From contig NZ_VTFU01000004.1 of the NCBI RefSeq assembly GCF_009192735.1, positions 248,001 to 312,000 of the forward strand: DNA of 64,000 bases. Reading direction: 5' to 3'. Under the pieces are notes generated by a model. It did not search any database and was not told where the DNA came from. It saw nothing but the letters and a program-made list of their open reading frames with translations. This DNA is from Arthrobacter gandavensis (lineage in GTDB: Bacteria; Actinomycetota; Actinomycetes; Actinomycetales; Micrococcaceae). A program made the position numbers and the translations under genes. Shown piece after piece: positions 31,501-35,248 of this stretch (position 1 is its first letter; every line of letters starts with the position of its first letter).

Positions 31501-33081
31501 TTATCCGGGAAGGCTGATGCCGGCCTGCGGGAGGGTCGTTCCCTCCCGCAGGAGGATGCTCACCTGTTCCGGAGGCAGTGGGCGGCTGAAATAGTAGCCC
31601 TGGCCGCTGCAGCAGCCCATTTTTTTCAGCTGCTCGGCCTGCGCGGCGGTTTCGATGCCTTCAAAGACAGCTTCCATGCCGGCGGACCGGATCAGGTTGT
31701 GGACGGCATCCACGAACCGCAGCTGGCCGTCGTCGTCGTTGATGTCCGCTATCAGCAACCGGTCCACCTTGACTGTGTCCACCGGCAGCCTGCGGAGGTA
31801 GCTGATGGAGGAATATCCGGTGCCGAAGTCATCGATTTCGAGTCCGACCCCCAGCGCGTGGAGGGACTTCAGCGAATAGGTCTCGACCTCGCCCCCGGTA
31901 ATGAACGCACTCTCGGTGATCTCCAGGATCAGGGCCGACGCCGGAACACCCGTCTCGCGCAGCGCCCGGCGCACGTAATCCACCAGATCCATGCTCTGCA
32001 GTTCGGAGGCCGCCAGGTTTACCCGCATCTGGAAGCCCCGGTGGACATGCAGCTTGTCCCGCCAGCTGGCCAGCTGTTCCAGGGCGGCCCGCAGCACCCA
32101 GCGGCCAATGCCGACAATGAGTCCGGTTTCCTCGGCGAGGGGAATGAAGGAGTCGGGCATGATCAGCCCGCGGACCGGATGTTTCCACCGGACCAGGGCC
32201 TCGACGCCCTGCACGACGCCTGTGTCCAGTTCCACGACCGGCTGGTACGCAAGCTCCAGCTCACTGCGCTCGACGGCGTGGCGCAGTTCCCCGGCCATTT
32301 CCCGGCGCAGCTGGCGGCTGTACAGCATGACGGGTTCGAAGAACTTGATCCGCTGCTGCGCGTCGTCCTTCGCCGCATACATGGCGGTGTCGGCCCGCAG
32401 CAGGATGTCGCTGCCGTCCTCCGCCGGGGCGGCCTGATGGATGCCGATGCTCGCGCGCGGCCAAACGTCCAGATCGTCAAGCTTGATCCGGCGCTTTAGC
32501 GCCTCCATGATTCTGACGGCCGTGGTCCGGGACTGCTGCGCGGTCGACACCGGCAGCAGCACCGCGAATTCGTCCCCGCCCAAACGCGCGACATCGGCGT
32601 CGGGTCCCGCCGCCGACACGAGCCGAACAGCGATTTCCATCAGGACCAGGTCTCCGGCGTGGTGGCCAAAGCTGTCGTTGATGTCCTTGAACCCGTCCAG
32701 GTCGATCATCAGCACCGCCGGACCAGGTGCCCCGTCCTTCCGGGCCTTTACGGCCGCGTCGAGCGCCTGCCGGAGGGAGGACCGGTTGCCGACGCCCGTC
32801 AGGGGGTCGGTCATGGCCATGTGCTGCATCTGTTCGTGGGCTTCGCGCAGCTCCTGGGTGCGGGTTTCCACCCGGTCCTCGAAATCGGCGTAGACCTCGC
32901 TGAGTTCCCCGGCGAGCAGGTTGATGCCGGTGATCACGGCATCCACCTGGTCCCGGGCCTTCGACGTCGGGATGTACGTGCTCAGATCTCCGGAAGCCAT
33001 CCGGATAATGCCTTCGACCACCTGGCTCAACCGGTCGTCGTCGGGCACCTGGAAGGCCGAGACGGCCGGATCAGGCAGCAT
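31501..33081 (-). CDS. GGDEF-EAL protein, c-di-GMP turnover
   Basis: 526 residues, no membrane helix. An N-terminal helical region (HAMP-like, then coiled coil around residues 70-95) leads to a GGDEF domain with intact RLGGDEFAV near residues 163-171 and an EAL domain: EALVRWKHP near 295, RVNLAASEL, LEITES, IDDFGTGYSS, VKVDR and EGIETAAQ. Most catalytic residues are kept, so both synthesis and breakdown of c-di-GMP are possible. Its ATG lies inside the end of the STAS-like gene (11-nt overlap), so expression is coupled to that partner, which may regulate it. Confidence 0.88.
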   Translation of the reverse strand: MLPDPAVSAFQVPDDDRLSQVVEGIIRMASGDLSTYIPTSKARDQVDAVITGINLLAGELSEVYADFEDRVETRTQELREAHEQMQHMAMTDPLTGVGNRSSLRQALDAAVKARKDGAPGPAVLMIDLDGFKDINDSFGHHAGDLVLMEIAVRLVSAAGPDADVARLGGDEFAVLLPVSTAQQSRTTAVRIMEALKRRIKLDDLDVWPRASIGIHQAAPAEDGSDILLRADTAMYAAKDDAQQRIKFFEPVMLYSRQLRREMAGELRHAVERSELELAYQPVVELDTGVVQGVEALVRWKHPVRGLIMPDSFIPLAEETGLIVGIGRWVLRAALEQLASWRDKLHVHRGFQMRVNLAASELQSMDLVDYVRRALRETGVPASALILEITESAFITGGEVETYSLKSLHALGVGLEIDDFGTGYSSISYLRRLPVDTVKVDRLLIADINDDDGQLRFVDAVHNLIRSAGMEAVFEGIETAAQAEQLKKMGCCSGQGYYFSRPLPPEQVSILLREGTTLPQAGISLPG

Positions 33082-33580
33082 TCCGCTTGCGCTTCAACCA
33101 CGCCAGGGCTTCGGACTCCGTGGAAAAGTAACGGGTGGGGCAGGGCTGGATGTTTCCTCCAAGCAGGAAGTTTGCAATGACCCGGTCCACCGGCGACACA
33201 CCGAGAACGGCAACGGCTGCAAGCGAGCCGGCACGGCTGAACACTGTTCGGGCGTCCCTGGTGATGGCCTCAACTCCAGTGAGAACCAGCAGCACCGGCA
33301 TCTCTCCTCGCCCGGCAAGGCGCTCCACCTCCGCAGCGGCGGCAGCTGCCATGGAACCAGTGATCACTTCCCCGGCAGGCAGCACGAGGTGGACGTGCCC
33401 CTCCGGCGCAATGCTCACCGCCGGAGAAGCAGCGGCGGCAACTTCCGGAATTTGGTCCGTCTCCAGTGTGCTAGCCAGGGCTGGCTTTGATGTGCACAGG
33501 TCCCCGATAGGATGGACCGTTGAGCGCCCGCCGGATAGAGCGTTGTTCACCTCTGGCATAGTCGATCGCTGCTGCGTCAT
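33071..33580 (-). CDS. STAS/SpoIIAA-like (DUF7793-type) protein
   Basis: 169 residues. The C-terminal ~110 residues (VLLVLTGVEAITRDARTVFS ... VIANFLLGGNIQPCPTRYFSTESEALAWL) have the SpoIIAA/STAS-like alpha-beta pattern found in small actinobacterial DUF7793 proteins. ATG 33580 follows GGGGGGAA. Overlaps the start of the GGDEF-EAL gene by 11 nt, which suggests a sensor or partner protein for that enzyme. No catalytic residues recognised; function unknown. Confidence 0.65.
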   Translation of the reverse strand: MTQQRSTMPEVNNALSGGRSTVHPIGDLCTSKPALASTLETDQIPEVAAAASPAVSIAPEGHVHLVLPAGEVITGSMAAAAAAEVERLAGRGEMPVLLVLTGVEAITRDARTVFSRAGSLAAVAVLGVSPVDRVIANFLLGGNIQPCPTRYFSTESEALAWLKRKRNAA

Positions 33581-33727: not shown

Positions 33728-34759
33728 TTATCCGTTCAGCGCTTCGATGCTGTCAATCAATAAGCGAGCTTTTTGCGCTCTCCTGCCAGCGCCTAAGATT
33801 ATGAAGGTTTTTTCGCTGTGTTGGACCGCTCCCAATGCATCTTCATGCCTTCCAAGTTCGAAGAGCGCTAGCGCCAGGAGGTACTCGGTCTCCGCGTGCG
33901 TGTGGGTTGGCAGGAGATCACGCTGCTCAAGAATCTCAGTCAGGCGATCCACCGATTCCTGCGGTTCACCCGTCAAGAGCAACCAGTGGGCCCGGGCCAG
34001 CGCAATTTCCAGTTGATCGATTGGACTTCCACCCGTCACTGAAATCGCCAGCTCAGCTCTTTCAATGCACACCAATGTTGAAGGTTCCAGCAGGCCGGCG
34101 TCCAAGCGGACATGCGCCGATCCCTTATTGAACAGAGCCCAAAGATTCACGTCATTACTCGGCGAGAGCATCTCACTCGCGAGATCATGATGCTTGACGC
34201 CTAAGTCCCTCTCTTCCATTAGGAACGCAACATTGCCTATCGCCCAGTGGGCTAGGCCTGCTGTCCGTGCGGGAGTATGGGGCGTAATGAGCCTCTCCAT
34301 AGCTTGGGCCGCCACCCAAGCTCCGGAAAGATCACCGCATTCAGCCAAAGAAGCGACCAGTGCGTGATGGGTATCAAAATTGCCTTGCTCAGGGCTCCCA
34401 TCCTGAACATCAATCGCGGCAGCTTCCTGCGCCACGCTCAACGCTTCGCCCACCAGGCCAAGAGCATGTAAAGCCCTTGCATAGAGAGCTTTAGCCCTTG
34501 CTTCCATGGCTGGATCAGAACGAATCGATCGATCTTCGGCAAGTTGCTTAGCACTGATCGCGAACTCTTGGATAAGCCCCATCTCCAGCTGGCATTCGGC
34601 CATTAGGAGCGAAGTACGCAAATATGCGAGCTTATCACCAGTTCCCAGAGCTTTTTCTGCTGCAACTGCAGCTTGCTCCATGGCCTCTTTGTATTCCCGG
34701 CGCTCCCAAAATTGCCGAGCACTGTACTCGTTGATCATGTAATCTAGGGAGTTTTCCAA
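33728..34759 (-). CDS. TPR-repeat protein, possible RRNPP/Rap-like peptide receptor
   Basis: About 343 residues, almost all helical, with seven or eight degenerate tetratricopeptide repeats (e.g. AKALYARALHALGLVGEALS, ETEYLLALALFELGRHEDAL). No helix-turn-helix, membrane helix or enzyme motif is seen. Length and build resemble Rap/RRNPP peptide receptors. It is visibly richer in A/T than its neighbours. The frame is open to TTG 34783; TTG 34759 is chosen because AAGAAGGGG precedes it, and ATG 34738 is a third option. It is divergent from a secreted 45-residue peptide gene, the arrangement that suggests signalling. Function is inference only. Confidence 0.6.
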   Translation of the reverse strand: MENSLDYMINEYSARQFWERREYKEAMEQAAVAAEKALGTGDKLAYLRTSLLMAECQLEMGLIQEFAISAKQLAEDRSIRSDPAMEARAKALYARALHALGLVGEALSVAQEAAAIDVQDGSPEQGNFDTHHALVASLAECGDLSGAWVAAQAMERLITPHTPARTAGLAHWAIGNVAFLMEERDLGVKHHDLASEMLSPSNDVNLWALFNKGSAHVRLDAGLLEPSTLVCIERAELAISVTGGSPIDQLEIALARAHWLLLTGEPQESVDRLTEILEQRDLLPTHTHAETEYLLALALFELGRHEDALGAVQHSEKTFIILGAGRRAQKARLLIDSIEALNG

Positions 34760-34783
34760 ACCTAAGGCCCCTTCTTTACGCAA

Positions 34784-34975
34784 GTTATGCGTGTGTCCAA
34801 GATCAGAATACCCTCACCCAAGGGTCCCGCCCGGACATGAGATCAAACATGTCGTCGAGCCTTTCTGGATTCCAGGGAACGCCGACGGAACGGAGAATCG
34901 GAGTCCGAGGTTGCGTAGACACACTATGCTTCAGATTGTTCGATTAAACACCTATTCCACCCCCAGGAGAACATA
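34784..34975. promoter_or_regulatory. Divergent promoter region with GTGTGTC/GACACAC pair
   Basis: GTGTGTC at 34791-34797 and its reverse complement GACACAC at 34918-34924. Each, read on the strand of its own gene, stands directly before a -10-like hexamer: CATAAC for the TPR gene (34784-34789) and TATGCT for the peptide gene (34925-34930). This suggests a shared regulator or shared promoter element. Confidence 0.4.
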
Positions 34976-35113
34976 ATGAAAAAAGCAGGCATTACAGTAT
35001 TGCTCGCCGCGTCCATGGCCATCTTCGGTCTAGCTGCTCCTGCTTCCGCAGCTGCTGTGGATTCAAATGAAATCGCTAAGCCTTTGGTCGGTATTTGGCC
35101 GAACCCTCGCTGA
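34976..35113 (+). CDS. Small secreted peptide, 45 residues (candidate signalling peptide)
   Basis: ATG 34976 follows CAGGAGA at 6-nt spacing. The protein has a perfect signal peptide: MKKAG, a hydrophobic core of about 15 residues, then APASA as Sec cleavage site after residue 25. The predicted exported part is only 20 residues, AAVDSNEIAKPLVGIWPNPR, with no Cys and no domain. A 10-bp perfect terminator hairpin follows 7 nt after the stop. Gene, ribosome site and terminator together make this a real unit, although short. It is divergent from a TPR protein, like peptide-receptor pairs of Firmicutes. Alternative: an unrelated small exported peptide or bacteriocin-like product. Confidence 0.72.
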   Translation: MKKAGITVLLAASMAIFGLAAPASAAAVDSNEIAKPLVGIWPNPR

Positions 35114-35119
35114 CAGCTG

Positions 35120-35153
35120 TGGCCGGGAGGAAACTGCTGCTCCCTCCCGGCCA
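35120..35153 (+). terminator. Terminator hairpin after the peptide gene
   Basis: GGCCGGGAGG / CCTCCCGGCC, perfect 10-bp stem with a 12-nt loop, directly after the 45-codon gene. Confidence 0.75.
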
Positions 35154-35248
35154 CCGGTTCTCGCAGCCGGCACTAATCCGGCAACTGGCCTTTCCGATGG
35201 TCTTTCCGGCGCTCAGGGACAATCCTCCCCTGTGGCAAGATAGTGGGC

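Follow-up and report, generated by a model that had tools for sequence, protein, structure and literature searches.

Divergent genes for a small Sec-exported peptide and for a TPR protein, located in a 64-kb window (the whole stretch of DNA that was analysed) of an Arthrobacter gandavensis genome, very likely encode a pheromone and its receptor, the link between receptor and ligand being inferred. The pair recurs throughout the genus and in many other Micrococcaceae, with a W-P motif in the peptide (F-P in three congeners), and we consider it likely that the whole represents an RRNPP-like pheromone family in Actinomycetota, in which binding, import and output are inferred. An earlier note on the window had proposed this interpretation from sequence alone, reading a secreted pro-peptide plus a TPR receptor as the RRNPP pattern. 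The results described here support it, and the physical contact of receptor and ligand is still an inference.

The peptide gene and the divergent TPR gene

The putative pro-pheromone gene (34976-35113, + strand) begins with ATG and has 45 codons, and its product is MKKAGITVLLAASMAIFGLAAPASA|AAVDSNEIAKPLVGIWPNPR, where the bar separates the signal from the exported part. The Sec signal, recognized in the sequence, ends in APASA (34976-35050, +) and leaves an exported part of 20 residues, AAVDSNEIAKPLVGIWPNPR; a ribosome site, AGGAG, is found at 34965-34969 (+). All of these elements had been claimed in the earlier note, and they held. The note had also assigned the gene its own terminator, which held only in part. 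Folding showed a strong 12-bp hairpin 3' of the gene (35119-35154, +; -32.7 kcal/mol, z -4.2), but the terminator scan found no standard terminator at this site, and no T-run follows the stem. The region of the mature pheromone is inferred to be GIWPNPR (35090-35110, +), which contains the G-x-W-P motif and whose exact ends are unknown. This region was assigned because conservation in 27 congener rows is anchored at the right, and because tandem G-x-W-P units are found elsewhere. Among the 56 signal-like small ORFs of the window, the W-P motif is unique to this peptide.

The proposed receptor is an HTH-less TPR protein encoded on the other strand (33728-34783, -), divergently from the peptide gene as had been claimed. 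Its frame has 351 codons from the first TTG, and since homologues begin near codon 9, the TTG at 34759, which gives a protein of 343 aa, is the likelier start. The match to Pfam TPR_12 exceeded its cut-off, and the AlphaFold model was an all-helical TPR superhelix (pLDDT 91.3, pTM 0.85). The protein meets the receptor criterion for RRNPP(A) systems, a TPR superhelix of about 250-500 aa, and lacks the N-terminal XRE HTH that is a criterion for non-Rap members of RRNPP.

The TPR gene is indeed A/T-richer than its surroundings (G+C about 0.55 vs. 0.65). The earlier note had taken this to fit gain by transfer, and a recent transfer is not supported. Across the genus the G+C of the gene ranges from 0.543 to 0.617 and is below that of the adjoining deoC and GGDEF genes in 29/29 genomes, at an identical location. 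Composition is therefore no argument for a recent gain, and recent horizontal acquisition was rejected. A mobile or phage origin was rejected as well: the viral-contig scan gave no relative, phages gave only two short matches, limited to the HTH region, and the plasmids searched held no relative of the receptor and none of the pro-peptide.

Pairing of the proposed receptor and the peptide gene across the Micrococcaceae

We surveyed 59 genomes, the window's own and relatives, and matched the receptor protein in 31: the window's genus was represented by 29 genomes, every one with a match, and the rest of the family by 8, of which 2 matched. The TPR gene and a divergent Sec peptide gene of MKK type were present at one location in 29/29 genomes of the genus, the own genome included; a peptide pattern restricted to ATG recovers 28 of these loci, and the 29th (L002) has a GTG start. 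Peptides were compared in 27 congener rows, omitting L018 and L019, which are near copies of L017. W-P was found in 24 rows and F-P in 3, followed by 0-4 residues, and the linker varied. The receptor is the fast-changing component: its mean identity to the window protein over 28 congeners is 44%, whereas the GGDEF-EAL protein reaches 65% in its aligned part and deoC 91%. The receptor frame is broken in Arthrobacter sp. ATA002 (L008, identical to L048), and the peptide gene there is apparently whole; a signal-only strain and a sequencing error are both possible.

The genome collection was then scanned by receptor pattern only, and the best 80 of 213 relatives were kept as named loci. All 80 of these Micrococcaceae loci encode, divergently from the receptor, a pro-peptide that contains a W-P motif. 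The peptide counts were obtained with loosened filters; the stricter first filters had missed real peptides. Precursors with one motif copy occurred in 10 loci, all of them of the window's group, and the remaining 70 of the 80 were tandem, with two copies in 34, three in 14, four in 17, five in 2, six in 1 and eight in 2. The unit GNWPDPM was represented by 176 copies, which are spelt in 49 different ways at the DNA level; every degenerate codon shows synonymous change, and near variants of the unit were few (GNWPDPA 8, GNWPDPV 5, GIWPDPM 3). Other genera showed units of their own (GNWPDG, GWWPN, GEWPH, GNWPN, NNWPL, GLWPY and GNWPY, as well as GNWPDR x5). Motif-bearing signal-like ORFs of 40 loci numbered 26 in 116 kb near receptors vs. 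3 in 322 kb elsewhere.

A sample of the family had the receptor (E<=1e-20) in 220/395 genomes and 17/32 genera, while a sample of 396 genomes of the phylum gave five matches at 1e-10, two within this family and three, all weak, in other families of the phylum. Two receptors and two peptides per genome were seen in G059 (GNWPDPM and GWWPH), G068 (GIWPNS and GWWPK) and G078 (GNWPN and GWWPN), and tandem receptors with two precursors in G146, G233 and G357. At L217, L228 and L229 two HTH-less receptors stand in tandem, and each of these loci encodes two different pro-peptides. The window's own genome has two words, GIWPNPR and VGDWPD. Two peptide words in one cell would be expected if pairs had been duplicated and had then diverged.

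The second of these words lies beside a second receptor, a match to which is present in 29/29 genomes of the genus. An XRE HTH is in frame in 13 of the 14 second-receptor loci read; in L044 the open frame starts behind the HTH. The strict peptide filter recovered nothing at these loci (0/14). A looser look showed, in 9/14 (L031, L032, L034, L035, L036, L043, L044, L045 and L046), a divergent mini-ORF that has 19-23 codons and ends in VGDWPD or VGNWPD; wherever its distance from the start of the HTH could be measured, this was about 125 bp. The mini-ORFs have no clear Sec signal. As a control, 6 of 2000 random 450-bp stretches gave an ORF with a ribosome site that ended in G-x-W-P. The example in the own genome, outside the window, is MKTIERLAAASTAVGDWPD (L031; about G000:C7:354618-354677, -), which has a GGAAGG site, and it is divergent from an XRE-HTH+TPR receptor at G000:C7:355011-355985 (+). 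The view of the second receptor as a solo, without a peptide, was dropped after these leaderless ORFs were found.

Fifteen further HTH-bearing loci were read among L231-L249. Sec-type W-P precursors were found in 5 (L233, L238, L239, L247, L249), and unusual or leaderless-looking candidates in 3 (L236, L241, L245). A small ORF beside the receptor at L241 (L241:3031-3273) has GIGDWPLG x3, and one at L245 (L245:3690-3824) ends in GGIGDWPHAA; neither has a clear Sec signal, and both are possibly leaderless variants.

The earlier note had proposed asking whether a gene for a Sec peptide always accompanies Micrococcaceae homologues of the TPR protein, in a divergent or adjacent position, and whether the C-terminal motif of the peptide is conserved. 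The answer was positive for the genus genomes and the named loci alike, and W-P or F-P was retained while the linker varied. Homologues of the TPR gene without a peptide gene were to count as refutation, and this was partly met: no peptide gene was found for 7 of the 15 further HTH-bearing loci, and the looser look found no mini-ORF at 5 of the 14 loci of the second paralogue (L033, L037, L038, L039, L040).

Receptor forms, the operator-like element and the GGDEF neighbourhood

An N-terminal XRE HTH was present in 70/80 named receptors and absent in the 10 of the window's group. Both HTH-bearing proteins that were scanned gave Pfam HTH_31 and HTH_3 above the cut-offs, and the model of an HTH-TPR protein (L109) had a pLDDT of 86.4. 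A quick tree of 78 rows, with peptide labels taken from the strict filter and some therefore missed, needed a single HTH change, indicating that the HTH was lost in one event. The contrast in HTH, GGDEF gene and operator is thus a single origin that has been kept and not a set of independent repeats; independent origins of the link between HTH and GGDEF were rejected on this ground. A search of PDB sequences with the family profile gave PlcR over the HTH and part of the TPR region, weakly (E 2.2e-4). Foldseek with the HTH-TPR model returned PlcR, pLS20 Rap, the Rap-CSF complex and PrgX in the top 50, below generic TPR proteins, and with the window model RapF reached rank 37, again outranked by generic TPR proteins. 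That the family works like RRNPP is well supported and likely, subject to the inferred steps of binding, import and output, but common ancestry with RRNPP is not settled.

The element TTGACA-N28-TGTCAA lies between receptor and peptide gene in 68/80 named loci, all HTH-bearing, and is missing from 2 of the 70 HTH-bearing named loci (L119, and L123 from A. rhombi). It is absent together with the HTH, being found in 0/10 HTH-less named loci and in 0/25 other HTH-less loci. Only 3 of the 15 further HTH-bearing loci have it and 12 do not, and it was seen in 0/14 second-receptor loci of the genus. We scanned 24 genomes for the element, 21 chosen as HTH-bearing (7 of them known to have it) and 3 of the window's genus. 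The exact element was present in 21/21 HTH-bearing genomes, once in 19 and twice in G195 and G069, and in 0/3 genomes of the genus, and the reversed control pattern gave 0/24. It was found at the receptor locus only in 19/21 HTH-bearing genomes. A regulon could not be drawn from the operator, the exact sites being almost confined to the locus. A one-mismatch scan of 8 genomes gave 31 sites vs. 11 for the reversed control, or 22 vs. 11 when the 9 exact sites are subtracted, and because of this mild excess further operator targets are not excluded. Two mismatches in the own genome gave 67 sites vs. 57.

Inspection of 22 loci by eye showed that in most of them the reverse half of the element could plausibly serve as promoter of the peptide gene (TTGACA-N17-TTTAC). 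TTGACA is also the -35 consensus, which is a caveat to reading the element as an operator, and there are no DNA-binding data. The operator of AimR consists of two 6-bp inverted boxes 25 bp apart, of which positions 4-5 (AC) are key, and AimR affinity is similar for spacers of 23-28 bp (PMC6458997). The likeness of TTGACA-N28-TGTCAA to this operator, drawn by analogy, is a possible lead and not a test.

On the window strand that carries the TPR gene, three genes are consecutive. Directly downstream of the receptor gene lies a DUF7793/SpoIIAA-like gene (33071-33580, -), identified by domain scan, and next to it a gene for a GGDEF-EAL protein with a HAMP-like N-terminus (31501-33081, -). Domain scan and genome search found no second GGDEF protein in this genome, and one other protein with an EAL domain. 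GGDEF genes make the messenger c-di-GMP. A GGDEF gene adjoins the HTH-less receptor in 29/29 genomes of the genus and is the sole GGDEF match in each. HTH-less loci of other genera had a GGDEF gene within about 5.5 kb in 24/24 cases, one of which (L213) is a fragment that matches residues 15-170 of 526. Nineteen of these genes lay inside the fetched stretch and 5 just beyond it (G371, G213, G357, G080, G072). Selection of the loci deserves attention here: 14 of the 24 were picked without prior sight of a GGDEF gene, and 14/14 have one, the fragment included, and the remaining 10 were chosen to widen the range of genera or once GGDEF neighbours had been seen in the genus. No GGDEF gene was found within 3 kb of the receptor in the 70 HTH-bearing named loci (0/70), nor in stretches of 10.5-11 kb around the 15 further HTH-bearing receptors (0/15), and five genomes of the HTH-bearing set (G060, G067, G069, G074, G089) are without any GGDEF protein. 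With the loss of the HTH placed at one event by the tree, receptor and GGDEF gene form one association, kept over deep divergence.

When window ORFs of at least 140 codons between 24 and 46 kb were tested, only the TPR, DUF7793 and GGDEF-EAL genes recurred beside the receptor outside the genus. The GGDEF gene is on the other side of the receptor in L223, L224 and L227. Many HTH-less loci, in other genera too, have a DUF7793 (SpoIIAA-like) gene accompanying GGDEF-EAL.

Eight HTH-less loci have 4-5 kb between the receptor and DUF7793-GGDEF, holding a gene of ~780 codons and one of ~520-560 codons; contact of receptor and enzyme is an inference because of these two intervening genes. The ~780-codon gene was recognized by a start motif common to six loci and by size in L228, and the ORF picked in L229 was a shadow frame. 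Insert genes in L211, L214, L215, L228, L235, L237 and L240 are of GT2 (cellulose-synthase-like) and CBM5/12 type: the larger was a family-2 glycosyltransferase with weak likeness to cellulose synthase in 4/4 scanned, and the smaller a CBM5/12 protein in 3/3 scanned, of which one also gave a GH18 match below threshold. In G172 and G248, too, a relative of the glycosyltransferase is encoded only a few kb from both the receptor and the GGDEF gene; in G035, G081, G127 and G366 it is found elsewhere in the genome. These genes point to a possible exopolysaccharide output in some genera. For the window's genus the synthase was rejected as output, with no match in the 12 genomes searched (0/12), the own genome included.

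Interpretation, rival explanations and known systems

We propose that the small gene gives rise to a Sec-exported pro-peptide, which would be cleaved outside the cell to a short G-x-W-P peptide and re-imported by an oligopeptide permease. The own genome encodes nine SBP_bac_5 proteins as import candidates, so that import is possible. Once inside, the peptide would bind in the groove of the TPR protein, whose gene is divergent from that of the peptide. Where the receptor carries an XRE HTH, as it does in much of the family, it probably regulates the promoter region between the two divergent genes, using TTGACA-N28-TGTCAA in one large group. The window's lineage has neither HTH nor operator, and there the receptor would most likely act in a Rap-like manner, by protein contact, on the DUF7793/GGDEF-EAL module; if it does, cell density would set c-di-GMP. 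Whether c-di-GMP is the output of the window's branch could go either way on present inference. Observed directly are the genes, the motif, the constraint on the peptide, the pairing, the neighbourhood, and the operator-like element with its absence where the HTH is lacking. Maturation, import, binding, DNA contact and output are all inferred, and there are no data on binding, secretion or phenotype.

A bolder reading would see a G-x-W-P language across the Micrococcaceae with two kinds of RRNPP-like receptor. The peptides would often be tandem in one exported precursor and, for some receptors, a leaderless mini-peptide. The receptors would be either DNA-binding, one large group having an AimR-like operator about once per genome, or HTH-less and tied to a c-di-GMP enzyme. 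Since the window's genus has only one GGDEF protein, one pheromone would then set the c-di-GMP of the whole cell. Taken jointly, these claims fall a little short of an even chance.

The most serious rival retains the peptide as a pheromone and makes the HTH-less receptor a decoy or antagonist of the second, HTH-bearing receptor system, the GGDEF neighbour being old and idle. The presence of the second receptor match in every genome of the genus, with the HTH form in 13/14 loci read, is in its favour, and VG(D/N)WPD is close enough to the G-x-W-P of the Sec peptides for cross-talk to be conceivable. Yet DUF7793-GGDEF stays near the HTH-less receptor in other genera despite differing neighbourhoods, the GGDEF neighbour is the only such protein in the window's genus, and the second receptor apparently has a ligand of its own in the leaderless peptides. 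We regard the decoy as unlikely. Still less probable is the idea that the cell secretes the repeat peptides as antimicrobials or surface peptides, with the TPR protein serving in immunity or processing. The pro-peptides are indeed exported, Trp-bearing, often multi-copy and encoded beside a dedicated gene, but an XRE HTH in 70/80 partners and an operator-like element in 68 fit regulation better than immunity, and a 7-residue unit that is constant across many species is unlike a weapon under diversifying selection.

Signalling by the peptide outside the cell through a membrane receptor, with the TPR protein merely regulating the peptide gene, is likewise very unlikely. Import of the peptide has not been shown, and the confinement of the exact operator to its own locus in 19/21 HTH-bearing genomes scanned would suit this rival. 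Against it, no other tested window gene belongs to the conserved neighbourhood outside the genus, and the window receptor, for want of a DNA-binding domain, cannot regulate the peptide gene by binding to DNA itself. Finally, chance or general synteny might keep a small ORF and a TPR gene together, and deoC and other neighbours are also syntenic within the window's genus. This explanation is contradicted by the results and all but excluded: the pairing holds across genera in other neighbourhoods, and the pheromone unit shows many synonymous and few amino-acid changes.

The pheromone-receptor reading, which we prefer, has no counterpart that we could find in the open-access literature searched; preprints and most subscription papers were not covered, and priority is unsure. 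GNWPDPM does not occur in that literature either. Signals of Actinobacteria are typically small molecules (PMC10075063), and a review of actinobacterial quorum sensing treats cyclic or modified peptides and butyrolactones and names TPR among the domains of some genera (PMC4748050); no comparable pair was found in the sections of either that bear on it. The corresponding sections of a 2026 review contain no actinobacterial case (PMC13220807), and a paper on Arthrobacter treats LuxR genes (PMC9659744). A peptide-receptor gene pair adjoining the only GGDEF gene of a genome suggests a peptide language that we did not find described for Actinomycetota in the literature searched. A receptor family in 17 of 32 sampled genera would extend linear-peptide signalling to a major phylum of the soil, and it offers ready synthetic ligands, GNWPDPM and others. 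It also makes it possible to ask how control by a receptor shifts from DNA to a second messenger when the HTH is lost.

RRNPP surveys cover Firmicutes/Bacillota and viruses, whereas the present system is from Actinomycetota (PMC10075063, PMC9765709, PMC12700828); further RRNPP literature is likewise on Firmicutes/Bacillota and their viruses (PMC10518010). Small W-P ORFs that lack a clear export signal, as found with the second receptor and at L241 and L245, resemble the leaderless communication peptides (LCPs) of RopB-type receptors. Reports of LCPs concern Firmicutes (PMC10518010), and the peptides here differ in sharing G-x-W-P with their Sec-type relatives. Likeness to AimR-AimP lies in the relatives' operator, which has two 6-bp inverted boxes with a spacer of 28 bp vs. 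25 bp for AimR, and in each system AC occupies positions 4-5 of the boxes (PMC6458997). Unlike AimR, the family is chromosomal; the window's own locus is without the element, and binding data are lacking.

Further parallels are the XRE HTH + TPR receptors of RRNPP/RRNPPA (PlcR-PapR, NprR-NprX, Rgg-SHP, PrgX), in which, as here, the receptor adjoins the gene of an exported pro-peptide. Their layout is common to 70 of the 80 named relatives but not to the window receptor, which has no HTH, and the family profile aligned with PlcR across HTH and TPR. Rap has an N-terminal helix bundle before its TPR domain, and the window model begins instead with paired TPR-like helices, without a separate bundle. 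The targets of Rap are response regulators, while the neighbours here are DUF7793 and GGDEF-EAL, and phr genes lie downstream of rap, in contrast to the divergent peptide gene of the window. Multi-copy Phr pro-peptides have been reported in Bacillus (PMC11343458), and the window locus shares with Rap-Phr the combination of an HTH-less TPR receptor and a secreted pro-peptide.
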